Of a stretch of DNA of 24,203 bases, positions 3,132 to 23,570 are shown piece by piece. The notes under the pieces are model-generated. The model made no database searches and had not been told where the DNA came from. It was given only the letters and a program-made list of their open reading frames with translations. Source of the DNA: a virus. Numbering within the stretch: position 1 is the stretch's first letter; each line of letters begins with the position of its first letter. A program made the position numbers and the translations under genes. The stretch lies in the IMG/VR virus record IMGVR_UViG_3300049048_000059, positions 1-24,203 of that record. One strand, given 5' to 3'.

Positions 3132-3695
3132 ATGGAAGAGATTATAGAGGCGTTAATGAACGGAGCTGATGCAGACTGGTATCAGCAAATTGAAAAAGTG
3201 TACAATTGCAGGCTGGAAGTTTGGCACGAAAAACACCACCAACTGCAATATACTTACTATGCCAATATTTACGCCAATGGATATGTTTTAAGCGTCGAAA
3301 TAGAAGATGGCATAAACAACGGAACTCGGGTAAGAGATACATGGGAGTATGCAAATGGCTGGAGCAATACGAGAGAGCAAAGAGAACTGATTGATTTTGA
3401 GCTATCTTACACGCAAGAAGCAATGGCAAACCAAATAGCTATTGCAACAAATTGGGCAAAGAGCATAAAGCCTTGGCTATTTGAAAGATACAGACAGCAA
3501 GTATACGACAATTATGTCACAGGCGGCAATGCCAAGGCGCTGGGAGCTACAAATGATACCGACAGAATAAATCTGCATAGACTTCAAAAAATGCAGGAAC
3601 AAAGAATTTACCTAGAGCCTATTTATAAAGAGTTTGAGGTAAAAAAATCTTTTAAGCTAGTTTACAAAACACCTTTGCTTTTCAACAATCATTAG
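3132..3695 (+). CDS. hypothetical protein, 187 aa
   Basis: ATG 3132 is chosen because an upstream in-frame extension to 3087 would run through the terminator hairpin. The product begins MEEIIEALMNGADADWYQQI. It is soluble and rich in aromatic and charged residues (QLQYTYYANIYANGY at about 37-51; WEYANGWSNTREQRELIDFE at about 75-94). No known motif or membrane segment is visible. It is a single-gene unit between two promoter/RNA cassettes, and the promoter of RNA 2 overlaps its 3' end. Function unknown; early regulation by the upstream terminator leader is inferred. Confidence 0.75.
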   Translation: MEEIIEALMNGADADWYQQIEKVYNCRLEVWHEKHHQLQYTYYANIYANGYVLSVEIEDGINNGTRVRDTWEYANGWSNTREQRELIDFELSYTQEAMANQIAIATNWAKSIKPWLFERYRQQVYDNYVTGGNAKALGATNDTDRINLHRLQKMQEQRIYLEPIYKEFEVKKSFKLVYKTPLLFNNH

Positions 3696-3704
3696 CTATA
3701 TTTG
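3674..3704 (+). promoter_or_regulatory. Bacteroidota-type promoter, TTTG-N19-TATATTTG
   Basis: TTTG at 3674-3677 and TATATTTG at 3697-3704 with a 19-nt spacer are a full consensus match. The -33 box lies inside the end of the preceding coding sequence. The downstream TATATTTGCAGTGTAG is identical to that of the promoter at 2966. Confidence 0.85.
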
Positions 3705-3708
3705 CAGT

Positions 3709-7094: not shown

Positions 7095-7125
7095 TTTGCA
7101 GTTAATTAGCAAAGCGCTATCTTTG
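7095..7125 (+). promoter_or_regulatory. Bacteroidota-type promoter, TTTG-N19-TATCTTTG
   Basis: TTTG at 7095-7098 and TATCTTTG at 7118-7125 have a 19-nt spacer. Just upstream is TTTGCAAAAAGTTTGC (7084-7099), which also precedes the promoter at 23184-23213. It probably drives the eight overlapping genes from 7148 to ssb. Confidence 0.85.
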
Positions 7126-7147
7126 CAGTACACCAAAATTCTATAGA

Positions 7148-9672: not shown

Positions 9673-9701
9673 AACCCGCCCCTAGCAATAGGGGCTTAAT
9701 T
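9673..9701 (+). terminator. intrinsic terminator after ssb (GNRA loop; copy at 18299)
   Basis: The stem GCCCCTA/TAGGGGC with loop GCAA (9678-9695) is followed by TTAATTTTT. The 23-nt block 9673-9695 is identical to 18299-18321, so this terminator occurs twice. Confidence 0.85.
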
Positions 9702-9712
9702 TTTATAGCCTA

Positions 9713-9743
9713 TTGCAAGCGGCACAAACATTAGCTATATTTG
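9713..9743 (+). promoter_or_regulatory. Bacteroidota-type promoter, TTG-N20-TATATTTG
   Basis: TTG at 9713-9715 and TATATTTG at 9736-9743 with a 20-nt spacer. TTAGCTATATTTGCA is also found at the RNA 2 promoter (3692-3706). It drives the RNA 3 region. Confidence 0.75.
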
Positions 9744-9751
9744 CATCATAT

Positions 9752-11478: not shown

Positions 11479-11684
11479 CAAAGCCCGAATACTACAAGGC
11501 AGGGGCTTTCGATGTGATTGCATTCTGCCAGCACCACGGCATAGGGTTCTGTGAGGGGAATGTAATAAAGTACGTGACCCGCGCCGGAAAGAAGGGCGAC
11601 CGCCTAGAGGACTTGAAAAAGGCGCAGGAGTATTTGCGCCGTATGATTGAGCAGGAAGAACAACAAGAGAAACCGCTATTTTGA
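11475..11684 (+). CDS. DUF3310 family protein
   Basis: A 69-residue protein with the DUF3310 signature: PEYYKAGAFDVIAFCQHHG, then GFCEGNVIKYVTRAGKKGD and LEDLKKAQEYLRRMI. The domain is found alone in many phages and as part of the T7 gp1.7 nucleotide kinase, so a role in nucleotide metabolism is possible for this stand-alone copy. It is coupled to its neighbours by ATGA upstream and TGATG downstream. Confidence 0.85.
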   Translation: MTKPEYYKAGAFDVIAFCQHHGIGFCEGNVIKYVTRAGKKGDRLEDLKKAQEYLRRMIEQEEQQEKPLF

Positions 11685-12880
11685 TGGAACTAATCACTAT
11701 ACCCATATCGAAGCTGCAAAGCAATACGGGGCAGCTTGAAGCGCTTGGAGTGCCAAAGAACCCGCGCCTTATCAAAGACGCAAGGTATAAGGCTTTATTG
11801 AAGTCCATTCAAGACCACCCACAGTTCTTGGAAGCCCGCGAAGTTGTCGTATATCCGCACGGCAAAAAGTACGTAGTGCTGGGAGGCAATATGCGCCTGC
11901 AGGCGTGCAAAGAATTGGGGTATAAGGAATTGCCCTGCAAAGTGTTCCCTGAAAGTGCAACACCCGAAGAAATTCGCGCATTCATAATCAAAGACAATGT
12001 GGGCTTCGGCGAATGGTCAGAGGACTTAGGCAACTGGGACGCGCTCGAATTGCAGGACTGGGGCTTGGAGCTGCCCGATTTTGGGGAGGTGGTTGAGGCC
12101 GAAATAGAAGAGCACGAGGCAGAAGAGCCTAGCGAAAGTATGCAGGTTGATGTAGTGCTAGGCGATTTGATAGAGATAGGAAGGCATAGGCTTGTTTGCG
12201 GTGACAGCACCACGGTGGAGGCAGTGGATAAAGTGCTGGGAGGGGCAAAGCCATTTTTGATGATTACCGACCCGCCTTATGGTGTGGAGTATGATGCGGA
12301 ATGGAGGAATGAGGCTGGATTAAATAATGGAGGTGCTTTCGGAAAAGTTCTGAACGACAACCGAGCCGACTGGACGGAGGCATGGGCATTAAGTCCTGCA
12401 AGCGTTGCGTATGTATGGCACGCTCAATGGTTTACTGACATTGTAAAGCAATCCCTCCAAAACGTTGGCTTTGATTTGCGCTACTTAATTATTTGGGCAA
12501 AGCAACATTTCGCAATAGGCCGAGGCCACTACCACCCAAAATATGAGCCTTGCTGGATGGGCGTGCGCAAGGGCGCTACAGCCGATTGGATTGGCGACCG
12601 AAAGCAGACCACCGTTTGGGATATTGACAAGCCCACAAAAAGCGAAACAGGCCACAGCACCCAAAAGCCTATCGAGTGCATGGCCAAGCCCATGCGCAAC
12701 CACGGCGGTGACGTGTACGACCCTTTCGGCGGGAGCGGAACGACAATGGTTGCGGCGGAACAACTGAATCGCACCTGCTACATGATAGAGCTTAATCCGC
12801 TGTACTGCCAAGTCATTATCAACAGGATGCGCAAGGCGTTCCCCGAACTGCCGATAAAAATAAACGGCAGCCCTTACTAA
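11684..12880 (+). CDS. ParB-like domain fused to a beta-class DNA methyltransferase
   Basis: The start is ATG 11684, sharing one base with the previous stop. Residues ~1-110 form a ParB/Srx-like domain: ITIPISKLQSNT at the start, VLGGNMRLQACKELGY at 65-80, and FIIKDNVGFGEW at 100-111. An acidic linker (about 135-152) follows. The methyltransferase domain has CGDST (172-176), catalytic motif IV TDPPYG (195-200), STQKP (325-329) and the AdoMet-binding motif I DPFGGSGTT (346-354). Motif IV before motif I marks the beta class; DPPY indicates N6-adenine or N4-cytosine transfer. Such fusions are common in phages and usually have no cognate nuclease, as here. Likely roles are protecting phage DNA from host restriction or marking DNA for packaging; the terminase follows directly. 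Confidence 0.92.
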   Translation: MELITIPISKLQSNTGQLEALGVPKNPRLIKDARYKALLKSIQDHPQFLEAREVVVYPHGKKYVVLGGNMRLQACKELGYKELPCKVFPESATPEEIRAFIIKDNVGFGEWSEDLGNWDALELQDWGLELPDFGEVVEAEIEEHEAEEPSESMQVDVVLGDLIEIGRHRLVCGDSTTVEAVDKVLGGAKPFLMITDPPYGVEYDAEWRNEAGLNNGGAFGKVLNDNRADWTEAWALSPASVAYVWHAQWFTDIVKQSLQNVGFDLRYLIIWAKQHFAIGRGHYHPKYEPCWMGVRKGATADWIGDRKQTTVWDIDKPTKSETGHSTQKPIECMAKPMRNHGGDVYDPFGGSGTTMVAAEQLNRTCYMIELNPLYCQVIINRMRKAFPELPIKINGSPY

Positions 12881-16541: not shown

Positions 16542-17753
16542 ATGCCAACATTGACCTTTTCAGAAATAGCAAGCAAGGTGCGCGGGGCGTTCACCTCCTA
16601 TGCACTATTTGCCACAAACCCATTCCGCTACCTAGTGACGCGCTCGCCTTCTTCCGGACGCGATGCGGTCGATAGCGTAATTTACGACAGCACAGGGGCA
16701 ACGGAATTGACAAGCCCATTGCGCTCCATATTCGCGCCGTCAACACCGCCACTATACATTGACCTTGCGCCGATTTGCGAGGGGCTTTTCGATATTGACC
16801 CCGCAACCATTGACGAGGCCACGCCCGTAGCCTATGCTGCGGGAAATTATAGGAACGTGCGCATCGGTTGGAAGGACGCCACGGCTGGCAGTTACACGGT
16901 AGAAAGCGAGGTTTACACGCTGATAGCCGGGGCGGTGCAGATTGGCGAAGATACTACGTATGGCCAAAACGCGGCCGCCTATTGCCCAGCGCCTACGGTG
17001 CCGCTCACTGGCAAGTTCCTTACAATGTTTGCAAAGCCGAAAGTTTACTCGCTTGATGGGGAGGTGTTCGCCCCGCAATTGTTCGCTATCATTACTCAAG
17101 ACGTGCTAGACTATTTGACTGCCAACCCGGGCTACTCGGTAGCGATAAGGCAGCGCTTTGACGGCGGGGCATGGCAGTATGATTTATTCAATGCAAATGC
17201 TGTGGGCGTGATAGCTTGCACTTTGTTTGACGATGGAGCGGGCACGGCTTTTTACACGGAGGTAGAAAACGCAAGCAGTATAGAGTTTCAGCTGGTTGTT
17301 GTAGATGCAGTCAATGCTTTTGACATTGCTTTGACAGATGCGATTACACTCGAAAAATTGGAGGTGTGTATTAACCCTTACGTACTTCGATGGAAAAACA
17401 GCAAAGGCGGCTTCGATGTTTGGTGCTTTGAGGGCGACAACGAAGAGAGCCACAGCGCCACCACGGACGGCTACACAAGCGTAGCGCCTGCGGATTTTGC
17501 CACACAGCAGTCATTGAAGCGGAGTTATGGCAAGCGTGCCGAAAATGAATTGAGCGCAAGGGCTGTTAACATAAAAACTGCGGATGCACTTGCTTTGCTT
17601 GAAATAGCCCAAAGCCCCTGCGTTCAGATTTGGAAGGGCGGATTTTGGATTTATTGCGATGTGGAGGGCGACAACGCAATTAACAGGCGCTTGCCTTTGC
17701 AGTCCCTCGAATTTGATGTAATTTTGCAATATACAATAACTGTTAACTCTTAA
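16542..17753 (+). CDS. tail/baseplate structural protein, 403 aa
   Basis: A beta-rich protein. The N-terminal half has repeated short beta blocks (LFATNPFRYLVTRSPSSG at about 22-39). The C-terminal half contains INPYVLRWKNSKGGFDVWCF, then KRAENELSARAVNIKTADAL and VQIWKGGFWIYCDVEGDNAI, with a final PLQSLEFDVIL. The LRWxNxxGGxDxWxF ... SPxVQxW ... LxxLEFxIxL order is one I associate with Bacteroidota phage tail proteins. No enzyme motif is visible. Its position before the hub-like 653-aa protein and the tape measure supports a tail tube or baseplate role. Confidence 0.7.
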   Translation: MPTLTFSEIASKVRGAFTSYALFATNPFRYLVTRSPSSGRDAVDSVIYDSTGATELTSPLRSIFAPSTPPLYIDLAPICEGLFDIDPATIDEATPVAYAAGNYRNVRIGWKDATAGSYTVESEVYTLIAGAVQIGEDTTYGQNAAAYCPAPTVPLTGKFLTMFAKPKVYSLDGEVFAPQLFAIITQDVLDYLTANPGYSVAIRQRFDGGAWQYDLFNANAVGVIACTLFDDGAGTAFYTEVENASSIEFQLVVVDAVNAFDIALTDAITLEKLEVCINPYVLRWKNSKGGFDVWCFEGDNEESHSATTDGYTSVAPADFATQQSLKRSYGKRAENELSARAVNIKTADALALLEIAQSPCVQIWKGGFWIYCDVEGDNAINRRLPLQSLEFDVILQYTITVNS

Positions 17754-17757
17754 TGTC

Positions 17758-18063
17758 ATGGCAAAGAAAGAAAAGAAATTGACGGAGGATGCACAGCCCG
17801 AAACGGCACAGCCCGAAGCACCCGAAACGGCACATCCCGAAACTGAGCATAAAATTTTTGTAGAAGGCGGCTATACAGGCGCGGCCGCTGATGGTGGCGA
17901 CCCGAAGCAATACCTAATACATGAAACAATTATGCCTCCAAGTAAAGACAAGCACCCCGGCTTTGTAAAGCTAGGCGACTACTGGCACAAGCTCAACACG
18001 GCCGGCAACCCAATGAAGCAACGCTACATTGAAGTGGAAGGCAAGCTGTGCCAAATAAATTAA
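17758..18063 (+). CDS. hypothetical protein with Pro/Glu/Thr repeats, 101 aa
   Basis: ATG 17758 is four nt after the previous stop. Residues ~1-32 are basic then low-complexity, with three imperfect PETAQ/PETAH/PETEH units. The rest is a small globular domain (IFVEGGYTGAAADGGDPKQY; GDYWHKLNTAGNPMKQRYIE). The repeat part may be a flexible linker. Function unknown; it lies between two structural genes. Confidence 0.65.
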   Translation: MAKKEKKLTEDAQPETAQPEAPETAHPETEHKIFVEGGYTGAAADGGDPKQYLIHETIMPPSKDKHPGFVKLGDYWHKLNTAGNPMKQRYIEVEGKLCQIN

Positions 18064-18085: not shown

Positions 18086-18298
18086 ATGGCAGAGAACCCC
18101 AAAACAGTAGGAGAACAACGCGTGCGTATTACGTTCAATCCTAGCAATGATGATTTGGTTAGTAAAATCAAATCAAAAAGTGCGGAGCTTATCAATCTAT
18201 GTGAAGAACTGAAAAGCAAAGACCCTCGTTTGGCATCACTTGCGCAAACTTCTTATGAAGAGGCTGCAATGTGGGCATTAAAAGCAGCGACAACCTAA
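18086..18298 (+). CDS. Acb2/Tad1-hairpin family protein, putative anti-CBASS cyclic-nucleotide sponge
   Basis: A 70-residue protein with the Acb2/Tad1 hairpin (DUF7681-type) signature: QRVRITFNPSNDDLVSKIKS at 11-30, SAELINLCEEL at 32-42, and LASLAQTSYEEAAMWALKAA at 49-68. The R-V-R-x-x-F-N-P-S start and the final YEEAAMWAxKAAT block are very characteristic. Characterised Acb2 proteins of phages bind cyclic di- and trinucleotides and so stop CBASS immune signalling; the Tad1 side sequesters Thoeris signals. The helical hairpin suits oligomeric assembly. It lies at the end of a long structural-gene transcript, just before a terminator. Family membership is strong by pattern; ligand and function are inferred. 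Confidence 0.82.
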   Translation: MAENPKTVGEQRVRITFNPSNDDLVSKIKSKSAELINLCEELKSKDPRLASLAQTSYEEAAMWALKAATT

Positions 18299-18327
18299 AA
18301 CCCGCCCCTAGCAATAGGGGCATTTTT
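18299..18327 (+). terminator. intrinsic terminator after the Acb2-like gene (copy of the one after ssb)
   Basis: GCCCCTA-GCAA-TAGGGGC (18304-18321) is followed by ATTTTTG. The 23 nt 18299-18321 repeat 9673-9695 exactly. ATG 18333 lies just after it with no promoter seen, so the baseplate and tape measure genes would need readthrough or antitermination. Confidence 0.8.
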
Positions 18328-18332
18328 GCAAT

Positions 18333-20294
18333 ATGCCCATGAACCGCACAGAACTATATTTAGGCGCGTCAAAACTTGAAACGAAGGACGGCGAAAAGGT
18401 GGCAATCACCTTGACGGCAAATTCTTTCGAGAAGCCAGAAACCCTGCAAAGCAGTTTCACAAACACATTCGATGTGCCATGGACACGCGCCAACCTCGAT
18501 GCAATAGGCGCTATCATGGCAGGGGAGCGCACGCGCAAGCAGTATGTGCCGGGCGATGCTCTTTTGAAAGTGGCAGGGCTTTACGATGTTTGGGGGAGGC
18601 TGGCAATATTGAGGGGCGACCAAGACCGCGCAAGCTGTGCCTTCATTTCGGGCGTTGCATCGCTGTTTGACGATTTGGGCGACAGTTCATTGCATTGCCT
18701 GTTTACAAATTTGACTTTTGCCAATGACCGTGCTGGGTTTATTACTGAGCTAATCAACGTTTACACGGACGGCTTCACAACGGCGGTTGCAAACTTTTCG
18801 GGGCTGGCCACAACGGCAACAACTATTGATATAGGCCGCATGTTCCCTTTCCCTTTCTTTTGGAAGGTCTTGCAGGACTGCGTGAACTTTGCCGGGTGGA
18901 CTTGCAGCACGGACGGGCTATTGCAGGATGCGTTTTTTAGGACGGTAGCGTTTGCCCATAATGGCGACCCGTACAACGAAGATTTGTATTTCAGCTACCT
19001 TGGTGCAAGCTGGAGTTTGACGGCAGGCGCGGCCCCGGGAAACTATGTAACTGCCGCGCCTTCTTCTACAACTGCACTTGTATTCAATTCTAGGTTTACA
19101 ACAATCCCGCCAGCCCCTGGCTCTACAAGTTTCCAATATAATTCTACGCAGGATTGCGGCGGCCGAGTGTATGAGCTTTATATTGATTCCATTGCTGTAA
19201 CAACAGATGCAGGGAGCTACGATTTCGATATAAGAATTGCTGCATTTGACGGCTTTACATACATAAGCACGCTGGCAACCTATTCGAGTGGGCTAGTGAC
19301 GGGTGCAGGTGCAAGCGTTACGCTTCCAAGCCTTACACTGCTTACTGCTTGGAATGAGGAGCAATACACTATACATGCCCAAATGAAAGTTAATGTAGGG
19401 CTTAATGTAGTTTGGCAGGATTTCACTTTCCGCTTCTGCGATGGGCGAGACGGCAATAGGGATTTGATTTGGGGCGCTGATAACATAATGCCCTACGCAG
19501 CATTGCCCGAAATGAAGATGAGCGACTTTATTAAGGACGTTTGCAAGATGTTCGGCGCTATCCCAAAGACTGACCCGTTTTTGAAAACAGTGGAGTTCGT
19601 AAAGTTTGAGGACATAGCAGGTGCATACACAGATGCACAGATTTGGAGCGGCAAGCTGGCAGGCGGTGAGGGCATAGAGTTTGAGTTCAGCTACGGCGGC
19701 TATGCAAAGAACAACCTGCTAAGCTATGACAATGACAGCGAACTGCCACCTGGCTATGGGCAAGGCGTTTTGAGTATTGACAACACGGCGGTAAAGGAAA
19801 GTTACAACTGGCTAAAACTGCAATTTTCTGCCAGCCTTAACGTAGCGCTTGCCGATTCCCGCGTTCAATGCTTGGGCGTGCCATTATTTGACGGGGCTGA
19901 AAAAGATAAGGTAAAGCCCCGCGTTTGCTATATGGTAAGCCAGACCGACAGCCCCGGCTTTATGAGTATTTCGGACACGGGAGGCAGTACGGCAATAACT
20001 GCATACAATATTGCCCGTTTCTTCCTGTTTGACGGGGAGCAGTCATTGCATGGCACCAGCCTTATCGATGAGTTTCATAATGCTTTTGGCATCATGCTTG
20101 GCGACATGCAGAAAGTTACCGCCTACTTTGCGCTCAATGGGAGCGACATTGCAGGCATAGACTTCTTCAAGCCTGTTTACATTGATGAAGTTTACAGGGG
20201 CGTTCGCATCCATGGCTACTTTATTTTGCAGGAAGTAAAGGAATGGGACGGAGGCAGTATAGTAGAGGTTGAATTGTTGAACCTTAACCAGTAG
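18333..20294 (+). CDS. large tail/baseplate hub-like protein, 653 aa
   Basis: The start may be ATG 18333 or 18339. The N-terminus reads MPMNRTELYLGASKLETKDG, then FEKPETLQSSFTNTFDVPWT (about 32-51), a pattern (F-T-x-T-F-x-V-P-x-T) common at the start of Bacteroidota phage tail proteins. A middle beta-rich region (about 230-370) with repeated Thr/Ala/Ser strands and a C-terminal SDFIKDVCKMFGAIPKTDP (about 395-413) follow. The protein ends ILQEVKEWDGGSIVEVELLN. A baseplate hub or distal tail role is inferred from size, composition and position upstream of the tape measure gene. Part of the central insert looks like a carbohydrate-binding beta-sandwich. Confidence 0.7.
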   Translation: MPMNRTELYLGASKLETKDGEKVAITLTANSFEKPETLQSSFTNTFDVPWTRANLDAIGAIMAGERTRKQYVPGDALLKVAGLYDVWGRLAILRGDQDRASCAFISGVASLFDDLGDSSLHCLFTNLTFANDRAGFITELINVYTDGFTTAVANFSGLATTATTIDIGRMFPFPFFWKVLQDCVNFAGWTCSTDGLLQDAFFRTVAFAHNGDPYNEDLYFSYLGASWSLTAGAAPGNYVTAAPSSTTALVFNSRFTTIPPAPGSTSFQYNSTQDCGGRVYELYIDSIAVTTDAGSYDFDIRIAAFDGFTYISTLATYSSGLVTGAGASVTLPSLTLLTAWNEEQYTIHAQMKVNVGLNVVWQDFTFRFCDGRDGNRDLIWGADNIMPYAALPEMKMSDFIKDVCKMFGAIPKTDPFLKTVEFVKFEDIAGAYTDAQIWSGKLAGGEGIEFEFSYGGYAKNNLLSYDNDSELPPGYGQGVLSIDNTAVKESYNWLKLQFSASLNVALADSRVQCLGVPLFDGAEKDKVKPRVCYMVSQTDSPGFMSISDTGGSTAITAYNIARFFLFDGEQSLHGTSLIDEFHNAFGIMLGDMQKVTAYFALNGSDIAGIDFFKPVYIDEVYRGVRIHGYFILQEVKEWDGGSIVEVELLNLNQ

Positions 20295-20298
20295 GGAA

Positions 20299-20589
20299 AT
20301 GGGCAATAACGAAACACTGCAAAGCGCATTCAGCAAGGAATATGAAGAATACCAAAACGATGTTTTCTCGTATTATTTGGATGAAGTGCTTGAAATGGCT
20401 AAAAAGATAGCGCATGAAAAGATATTCATTGAGGAGCAGTCAGAGCATGGCAACTTTATGAATATGAAGTTTTGCCTATTCTTTTGCTGGCTAATCAAAA
20501 CAAAGCGCTTGGAGCTTGAGCAAAGGTGGCCTTTTGAAAAGTCTTTGCTGGAAAAATCTTTCATTGTTTTGGGCTATTCATATCAATAA
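20299..20589 (+). CDS. small hypothetical protein, 96 aa
   Basis: ATG 20299 is four nt after the previous stop. The product MGNNETLQSAFSKEYEEYQN is helical, with EMAKKIAHEKIFIEEQSEHG and an aromatic, Cys-containing segment (CLFFCWLIKTKRLELEQRW) too short for a clear membrane protein. Its stop at 20589 is one nt from the tape measure ATG. Function unknown. Confidence 0.6.
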   Translation: MGNNETLQSAFSKEYEEYQNDVFSYYLDEVLEMAKKIAHEKIFIEEQSEHGNFMNMKFCLFFCWLIKTKRLELEQRWPFEKSLLEKSFIVLGYSYQ

Positions 20590-20590
20590 C

Positions 20591-22849
20591 ATGGCTAAGA
20601 ACGAAATTATAGTTGAGGTAACAATCGACAGCAAGCAGGCGGAGGCCAATGCGGCCAAACTTGCGCAAACGCTATTCGAGCAGCGCAAGGAATTGGCTGC
20701 GGTACGGGAGGCATTCAAGGCATCCAACGGCACGAACTTGGAGGCGTCCAAGCGCATGAACGCGCTGGAGGAGGCAGTAAAGGCTACCACTACGGAGCTG
20801 AACCAAGAGCGCAAGGCAATGGTAGCCAATGCAAACAGCTTGGAGGCACTGCGAGCCATTACCAACCAAATGACGCGGGAGCGCAACGGTCTTAACACAG
20901 GAATAAAGGAGCAGGCCGATCGGTACAAGGAACTTACCGAGCAAATCAAAGCGAACAATGAGCTGATAAACGAGCAAAGCAAGGCAGCTGGCAGTTTCAA
21001 AGACAATATAGGCAACTATGCAGGCTCAATAAAGGAGGCGATTGCTGGCAATATGGCTTTCGGAGGGAGCTTTACGCAGTTCATTGAGATTACGCAAATA
21101 GCCAACACGACATTTAAGGCTTTCAATATTACCCTAGCTTTGAACCCTATCGGCGCTATCATTGCCGCCGTTGTGCTTCTTACCGCTGCGCTTTATGCCT
21201 TTTTCACACAGACAAAGGAGGGGCGCGTAATTATAGAGAAAGCATTTGCTGGCATTATGGCCGTTCTTAAAGTTGTGCTAAACCTATACGCACAGCTAGG
21301 CAAAGCAATATTTGAGTTTATAGTTGACCCCGTAAAGACTGCACAGAAGGCATGGGAGAACTTGAAAGCCCTTTTCAAAGACGGCATACCGAGCGCAATA
21401 AACAAAAGCGCGGCGGCAATGGGCAACTTTGCAAAGGAGGCCAAAAAAGCAGCCGATGAAGCAATGCGACTTGCAGAGCTTCGCAATATTTGGCAGGAGC
21501 AGGCACGTGATGCAGAGGTAGCAGCTGCAAGGGCGCAAAAGCTGGCCGAGCAGTACCGCAAATTGCGCGATGATGAAACGCTTTCTTTCAAAGAAAGGCA
21601 GGAGGCAAACAAGCAGGTGGCCATTGCTGAAAAGGAAAGGGCTGCGCAATTAAGGCAGGTACAGCTTTTGAAGGAGCGAGAAATAGAATTAGAGCTTAAA
21701 GCAAAGTACGGCGTTCAAGATATGGCAGCCGTTCGCAAGCAGGCGACACAAGACGAATTGCAGGCTCTTTCCGACATACGCAAAGAGCTGGAACTTATTG
21801 ATGAAGACTATGCAGGGCGTACTACGGAGGTGGTGACGGAGGGCGTTTCTTTGCAGAAGGAGGCGGAAACGGCACGCTTGGAGCTTAAAAAGAAAAGGCT
21901 GGAGGGCGAATTGATAGGCACGCGAGAAACCTCTTTGGAGGCATATAGGCTAAGGCAGGAAATACTTGAAATAGAGCGCAAGCAGGCGCTAATAAACTTG
22001 CAGGCTTCAAGCGATGAGCGCTTAGCAGTCATTCAGGACTTCAATAACAAGCGGAAGGAGCTTGAACTGGAATACAGGGCAAGCATTGACGAAATAGAAG
22101 CCACGGACGCGGAGCAGGATGAGGAAGAATATAGCGATGCGGTTTCATGGGAAATTGAGATGAAGAAAATGCTTGCCGTCGAATTGATGCAAATTGAGCG
22201 CGAAGAGCAGGAGCAGAAAGAAGAAAATGCTAGGCAGGAAGAAGAGCGCTTTGCTAGGGAGCTGGAACGAGACATGCTTATTGCCGAATCAAAAAAGACG
22301 CTGGCACAGGCTGGCATGGATGCGACACGGGCGGCGCTTGAATTTACTTTGCAGGCGTTCGGGAAAGAAAGCAAGGCGTACAAGGCTTTGCTTGCCGTTC
22401 AACGCGCGGCCACTATTGCAAGCATGACTATCAAGCTGCAAGAGCAATTGCAGAACATACGCACACGGGCGGCAGAACTAGGCTTGCCATTAGGGCCGAT
22501 TTATGCAGGCGTGAACACAGCAAGCGCTATCATTCAGTACGTAGCAGGCACGGCCAAAGTAGCGGCGGCTGGCTTCCAAAAAGGTGGCTATACAGGTGCC
22601 GGCTCGGACGATGAAGTAGCGGGGCAAGTTCACAAGAATGAAGTAGTAATACCCGCGCCCGTAGTGCGCAAGTACGGCGTTGACTTCTTCACCTCCTTCA
22701 TTGACGGAGCGCCAATGAGGCCGTCCCCTACGGCGGCAATAGCGGAGCAGGGGCGCATTTCGAGGGAGCAAAGTATTTATGTAGCTGTTACCGACATAAA
22801 CAAAGGGCAGCAGCGTTACGCACAGGTGGCCGAACTTGCAAACAGCTAA
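20591..22849 (+). CDS. tape measure protein, 752 aa
   Basis: The start is ATG 20591 (MAKNEIIVEVTIDSKQAEAN); upstream in-frame codons overlap the previous gene. Residues ~12-135 form a helical coiled coil rich in Ala, Glu and Lys. A hydrophobic segment follows at ~180-205 (LNPIGAIIAAVVLLTAALY), typical of tape measure proteins, then long coiled coils (about 290-580). The C-terminal part has AGTAKVAAAGFQKGGYTGAG and a small domain with VHKNEVVIPAPVVRKYG (about 680-700). Tape measure length sets tail length, so a modest siphovirus tail is expected. The C-terminal KGGYTG...NEVVIP block is common in such proteins. Confidence 0.9.
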   Translation: MAKNEIIVEVTIDSKQAEANAAKLAQTLFEQRKELAAVREAFKASNGTNLEASKRMNALEEAVKATTTELNQERKAMVANANSLEALRAITNQMTRERNGLNTGIKEQADRYKELTEQIKANNELINEQSKAAGSFKDNIGNYAGSIKEAIAGNMAFGGSFTQFIEITQIANTTFKAFNITLALNPIGAIIAAVVLLTAALYAFFTQTKEGRVIIEKAFAGIMAVLKVVLNLYAQLGKAIFEFIVDPVKTAQKAWENLKALFKDGIPSAINKSAAAMGNFAKEAKKAADEAMRLAELRNIWQEQARDAEVAAARAQKLAEQYRKLRDDETLSFKERQEANKQVAIAEKERAAQLRQVQLLKEREIELELKAKYGVQDMAAVRKQATQDELQALSDIRKELELIDEDYAGRTTEVVTEGVSLQKEAETARLELKKKRLEGELIGTRETSLEAYRLRQEILEIERKQALINLQASSDERLAVIQDFNNKRKELELEYRASIDEIEATDAEQDEEEYSDAVSWEIEMKKMLAVELMQIEREEQEQKEENARQEEERFARELERDMLIAESKKTLAQAGMDATRAALEFTLQAFGKESKAYKALLAVQRAATIASMTIKLQEQLQNIRTRAAELGLPLGPIYAGVNTASAIIQYVAGTAKVAAAGFQKGGYTGAGSDDEVAGQVHKNEVVIPAPVVRKYGVDFFTSFIDGAPMRPSPTAAIAEQGRISREQSIYVAVTDINKGQQRYAQVAELANS

Positions 22850-23172: not shown

Positions 23173-23183
23173 TGCCCTCCCCC

Positions 23184-23213
23184 TTGCGCTTTGCAAAAAG
23201 TTTGCTATATTTG
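23184..23213 (+). promoter_or_regulatory. Bacteroidota-type promoter, TTG-N19-TATATTTG
   Basis: TTG at 23184-23186 and TATATTTG at 23206-23213. TTTGCAAAAAGTTTGC (23190-23205) also occurs at the 7095 promoter. It should drive the gene starting at 23235. Confidence 0.85.
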
Positions 23214-23234
23214 CACACGCCAAAACTTAAAGAG

Positions 23235-23570
23235 ATGAAGAAGTATAATATTATTGTCGAGGCCAATGAGATAAATGCGTGGCTAGATGTAACCGCATCC
23301 GATAATGGCGAATGGGTGAAGGCAGAAGAAGCACAGGCCGAAATAGACCGCCTGCAAGCGGAAATTGAGGCGCTGAAAAATTCGCAAGAATGGCGCACGG
23401 ACTGGGAGAATGTAAAAATCGGCACTGTAATAGTCACAAGAGAGCCGTTCAGGATTATAAACGGTGTATTAAATTACACTTATGACGGCTTTGTTACTCA
23501 AAGGCTTTACAGCTCTATTGGCTTTGGTTTAAGAGCCGAAAAAAGAGAGTTCAAAATAATTGAGCCGTAG
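23235..23570 (+). CDS. small coiled-coil protein with GEWVKAEEA motif, 111 aa (paralogue of 1857-2186)
   Basis: ATG 23235 is set by the promoter 20-50 nt upstream; the open frame extends further but through a terminator. The product has MKKYNIIVEANEINAWLDVT, GEWVKAEEAQAEIDRLQAEI, ALKNSQEWRTDWENVKIGTV and ends FKIIEP. The shared blocks mark it as a paralogue of the early gene at 1857. It stands alone with its own promoter and two downstream terminators within the late region, so it may be a moron-type gene. Function unknown. Confidence 0.8.
   Translation: MKKYNIIVEANEINAWLDVTASDNGEWVKAEEAQAEIDRLQAEIEALKNSQEWRTDWENVKIGTVIVTREPFRIINGVLNYTYDGFVTQRLYSSIGFGLRAEKREFKIIEP

Follow-up and report, generated by a model that had tools for sequence, protein, structure and literature searches.

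A putative Acb2-type nucleotide-signal sponge in a moron-like unit within the structural gene cluster of a phage likely to infect Bacteroidota

A 70-amino-acid protein encoded at 18086-18298 (+) in the window, an entire IMG/VR virus record 24,203 bases long, adds a new member, short and stand-alone, to the known Acb2/Tad1 sponge family. Our preferred reading, to which we assign a probability of roughly 0.7, is that its gene (acb) specifies an Acb2-type sponge and belongs to a moron-like unit that has a promoter and a terminator of its own, so that early expression is possible. The family, the predicted monomer fold, the promoter and terminator motifs, and the atypical GC3 are directly supported. 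The features on which the argument draws are as follows:

9673..9695, + strand, copy identical to the 23-nt terminator at 18299..18321, after the ssb stop codon
13241..14413, + strand, terminase large subunit (TerL; PF17288, PF04466, phrog_2)
17696..17728, + strand, Bacteroidota-type promoter TTTGC-N18-TAATTTTGCA, 29 nt before the orf101 ATG
17758..18063, + strand, orf101, 101-aa protein that opens the putative two-gene unit
18086..18298, + strand, acb, putative cyclic-nucleotide or ADPR-type signal sponge, Acb2/Tad1 hairpin, 70 aa
18299..18321, + strand, intrinsic terminator AACCCGCCCCTAGCAATAGGGGC abutting the acb stop codon, then ATTTTTG
20516..22849, + strand, tape measure protein (phrog_1506, E 8e-17)

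Family assignment and predicted fold

The acb product (MAENPKTVGEQRVRITFNPS...TSYEEAAMWALKAATT) matched the Pfam family PF24729 (Acb2/Tad1 hairpin) over residues 17-69 with 46.9 bits (cut-off 27; E 3.2e-12; genome-scale E 1.2e-13), and the Pfam search returned no other family. The first-pass annotation had called the protein Acb2/Tad1-like on account of RVRxxFNPS and YEEAAMWAxKAAT signatures and had proposed a profile search and a structure prediction as checks: both signatures are found in the 70-aa open reading frame, PF24729 scores above its curated cut-off, the AlphaFold2 model shows the Acb2 layout, and membership of the family is backed by profile, model, and relatives alike. T4 Acb2 (Vs.4) also matches PF24729 (E 7e-20) and was the top-scoring chain, at a weak E of 0.05, when the PDB was searched with a profile. 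A single-sequence PDB search with the acb protein gave chance hits and was set aside, and a PDB query with one short sequence found no match.

The Acb2 protomer consists of a short N-terminal helix and two long antiparallel helices (PMC10419184, PMC12043709), and Tad1 adds an N-terminal four-strand beta-sheet before the hairpin (PMC12043709). The AlphaFold2 monomer model of the acb protein (pLDDT 89.8, pTM 0.74) has helices at residues 8-13, 23-42, and 47-69, i.e., a short N-terminal helix and then a hairpin of two antiparallel helices, with no predicted strand and only 22 residues preceding the hairpin (helix 2); since helix and hairpin occur without the Tad1 beta-sheet, the layout is that of Acb2. 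The Acb2-like part of the earlier label thus holds, while the Tad1-like part falls with the beta-sheet that the model lacks. That the protein is nevertheless of the Tad1 (Thoeris anti-defence 1) type could be argued from the C-terminal helix hairpin that the two have in common within one Pfam family, but this is largely refuted by the short length and the strandless predicted fold, and we regard it as highly improbable. In a Foldseek search of BFVD (predicted viral proteins), two Acb2/Tad1 hairpin proteins ranked first, with TMq values of 0.81 and 0.75, a probability of 1.00 and E-values of only 0.003-0.009; against the PDB, Foldseek returned neither Acb2 nor Tad1, only unrelated small helical proteins.

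Relatives and putative ligand-contacting residues

Among viral contigs, 187 relatives of the acb protein were detected and 80 kept, and 49 were aligned together with the window protein (n=50). PF24729 was matched by 50/50 of the aligned proteins, 21 columns are invariant, and the consensus reads SIGExRVRxSFNPSxDxxVDxIKxxTAxLIDLCExLKxxDPRLASLAQTAYEEAAMWAVKAAT. The closest known Acb2 counterparts are Vs.4 of phage T4 (the one for which PF24729 was tested) and gp24 of Pseudomonas phages PaMx33/PaMx41. In the alignment, T4 Acb2 is 24% and PaMx41 Acb2 12% identical to the acb protein, which at 70 aa is shorter than the Acb2 proteins of T4 and PaMx41 (88-94 aa). An MWA..A motif is common to T4 Acb2 and the acb protein, whereas the N-terminal GExRVRxxFNPS block, strongly conserved in the window branch, is absent from both T4 and PaMx41 Acb2. 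Closer to the window protein (35-56% identity) are uncharacterized hairpin proteins of DSL-LC05, FCL-2, elemovirus, EcP1, and PS3, which have the FNPS ... MW.VKA core; the hairpin loop is longer in the FCL-2 and elemovirus proteins than in the acb protein.

Residue roles were taken from PMC12657218 and reviews. T4 Acb2 needs Tyr8 to bind dinucleotides, and its Phe82 stacks against the ligand (PMC12657218). Phe17 of the window protein and Tyr8 of T4 occupy Pfam profile position 2, and Thr69 and Phe82 occupy position 57, a matching of residues by Pfam coordinates that assumes no gap at the match ends. For the C-terminal part the alignment agrees; the MAFFT alignment misplaces the N-termini of T4 and PaMx41 Acb2, so the Tyr8-Phe17 match rests on the Pfam coordinates. 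The acb protein thus has an aromatic residue where known Acb2 proteins have Tyr8/Tyr11, and one half of the aromatic clamp appears to be kept (Phe17) and the other not (Thr69). All 50 aligned sequences carry the Thr that corresponds to Thr69, and the PS3 and FCL-2 proteins have Phe at this position. Because T4 Phe82 is replaced by an invariant Thr, dinucleotide binding may be lost in the acb protein. The difference makes ligand specificity within the sponge family directly testable.

Genome context and placement among structural genes

The late cluster extends from a TerS-like gene and TerL through to the tape measure gene, and acb lies 3.7 kb downstream of TerL and about 2.2 kb upstream of the tape measure gene, which bears out its reported position inside the structural gene cluster. 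No functional annotation was found for its immediate neighbors (16542-17753, 17758-18063, and 18333-20294), and for orf101 neither Pfam, PHROG, and NCBIfam nor phages and viral contigs yielded a relative. The nearest matches to TerL are terminases of Bacteroides phages (about 38% identity), and relatives of the acb protein are carried by Chitinophagaceae and Dyadobacter contigs; these similarities, together with the Bacteroidota promoter motif described below, make a Bacteroidota host likely. Just upstream of the terminase genes, 11681-12880 encodes a C-terminal N6/N4 DNA methylase domain with an N-terminus that is ParB-like by eye. The tape measure gene is followed by a Clp-protease-fold gene (PF00574; 23638-24201) that is truncated where the record stops; it may encode a prohead protease located behind the tail genes.

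The first-pass annotation had treated the location between structural genes as anomalous for an anti-defence gene, a view that does not survive comparison, since many relatives are placed in the same way. A TerL or portal gene lies within five genes at no fewer than 34/80 of the relatives' loci; because the neighbors at these loci span at least three TerL and at least two portal clusters, the loci represent more than one lineage, yet they are not mutually independent. The neighbors of the remaining relatives include major head, tail sheath, portal, and internal virion proteins. By raw count, structural-cluster placement is therefore common in the acb branch. Two of the five relatives from isolated phages are also set among structural genes: that of DSL-LC05 lies between terL and portal, and that of Providencia phage PS3 has a gene for an internal virion protein on either side. 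Those of elemovirus and EcP1 lie among small early or replication genes. T4 vs.4, unlike acb, sits in the regB-vs-tk region, and PaMx41 orf24 closes the replication-gene strand, next to the structural cluster. Putative anti-defence sponges are thus not confined to early regions, and screens restricted to such regions will overlook them.

Promoter, terminator, and composition of the moron-like unit

Bacteroidota promoters carry a -33 TTTG and a -7 TAnnTTTG element (PMC2483708). With a 19-nt spacer, the strict consensus has four exact matches in the window, every one on the + strand, where 0.19 would be expected; an extended form, TTTGC-N18-TAnnTTTGCA, chosen after the sites had been seen, recovers the same four sites and none in 100 shuffles. 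Three of the four precede early genes, and the late half has a single exact match, the site at 17696-17728. Two features of this site weigh against the preferred reading: it lies within the 3' end of the preceding gene, and its -7 box, TAATTTTG, is not the GCTATATTTG found elsewhere in the phage. Sigma-70-type promoters occur in the window at chance level only. Bacteroidota-type promoters with a common -7 box (GCTATATTTGCA or close) were noted at 2966-2998, 3674-3706, 7095-7127, 23183-23215, and 9709-9745, before early and right-end genes, and this GCTATATTTGCA-type family looks like the host-sigma promoter set of the phage.

A hairpin terminator adjoins the acb stop codon, as had been claimed. 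It forms a perfect 7-bp hairpin (18304-18321) followed by ATTTTTG and folds at -13.8 kcal/mol (z -2.5). Under a strict definition, four terminators lie on the + strand of the window versus 0.18 in shuffles (both strands together), whereas loosely defined ones are at chance level. The 18-nt hairpin alone occurs in 59 viral contigs, with a T-run next to it in 39/59, and is not diagnostic by itself. Whether members of the branch are generally followed by a terminator was tested, and the idea gained no support (3/59 relatives versus 12/644 control genes, p 0.12); since terminators are not enriched after acb in the relatives, the promoter-terminator bracket is a feature of the window phage and not of the acb family.

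The GC3 of acb is 0.338, a noisy value from only 70 codons, whereas the remaining genes read in frame have values of 0.47-0.65, a comparison that leaves out the tape measure gene; orf101 (0.52) does not differ in composition from its neighbors. The gaps flanking acb are 22 and 34 nt, compared with -10 to +5 at most other late-operon junctions (one exception of 284 nt). Morons are accessory genes between structural genes with their own promoter and terminator and a differing composition (PMC4378225). With promoter, terminator, and atypical acb GC3, orf101-acb fits this definition at the level of motifs and acb composition, the composition of orf101 being the part that does not differ. Promoter, terminator, structural-gene setting, and atypical composition are thus common to the unit and the morons of lambdoid and Mu-like phages, here as motifs only; unlike those morons, the window unit has two genes behind its promoter. 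Viral, genome, and phage collections yielded no relatives of the flanking tail proteins or orf101 and no syntenic relative with an empty site (orf101-acb absent), and with no empty site known, insertion of the unit is a proposal.

Proposed function and alternative explanations

By analogy with the family, we infer signal binding, hexamer formation, and anti-defence activity for the acb protein. The proposed sequence of events would be as follows: (i) orf101 and acb would have been inserted into the tail operon as a moron-like unit, complete with a host-type promoter and a terminator; (ii) the private promoter would let host RNA polymerase transcribe acb early; (iii) the product, a stand-alone Acb2-type hairpin, would probably assemble into a hexamer; (iv) the hexamer would bind, uncut, a nucleotide alarm signal, be it a cyclic di- or trinucleotide or a cyclic signal of the ADPR type; and (v) this capture would keep CBASS, Thoeris, or a similar host defence untriggered. 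Early expression and the insertion history are likewise inferred. Late synthesis or partial early transcription had been suggested for acb, and a dedicated promoter upstream with a terminator downstream is the better-supported alternative. The bracket offers a concrete, testable way for a gene with a late address to act early.

It may still be that the sponge is just transcribed late along with the tail genes and counters a late alarm, e.g., one raised by a capsid or tail sensor, the promoter match being due to chance. Late defence triggers do exist (Thoeris senses phage capsid proteins; PMC12578639), and the recurrent placement of relatives beside terminase and portal genes, and between internal virion proteins in PS3, would suit such timing. 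An exact promoter match of a kind absent from the shuffles, with a terminator directly downstream, argues against it, and we consider it unlikely, albeit deserving of weight. The same proximity of TerL or portal genes could be read to mean that the stand-alone hairpin branch took on a role in the virion or in packaging and lost immune-signal binding, as could the branch-specific conservation of the GExRVRxxFNPS block that T4 and PaMx41 Acb2 lack. With neighbors from several unrelated TerL and portal families, however, the protein has no fixed partner, and the elemovirus and EcP1 relatives sit in early regions, which leaves this improbable.

Within the preferred sponge reading, we tentatively propose, as a possibility short of an even chance, that the short GExRVRxxFNPS branch, in which Phe17 is kept and an invariant Thr (Thr69) stands at the position of T4 Phe82, is a widespread sponge subfamily with a ligand preference of its own, that its genes typically reside in packaging and tail gene clusters, and that in the window phage a private promoter drives early expression.

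Repeats at the ends of the record

At 1-362, a 72-bp tandem repeat of about five copies encodes a 24-aa repeat (TPERLDWCAEKRPLAALKYASSLL); the repeat protein is cut by the window start and has no Pfam match above cut-off. Two stretches toward opposite record ends, 1905-2069 and 23307-23429, contain related coding sequence (91% identical over 35 nt, 78% over 72 nt), which suggests paralogous small genes.
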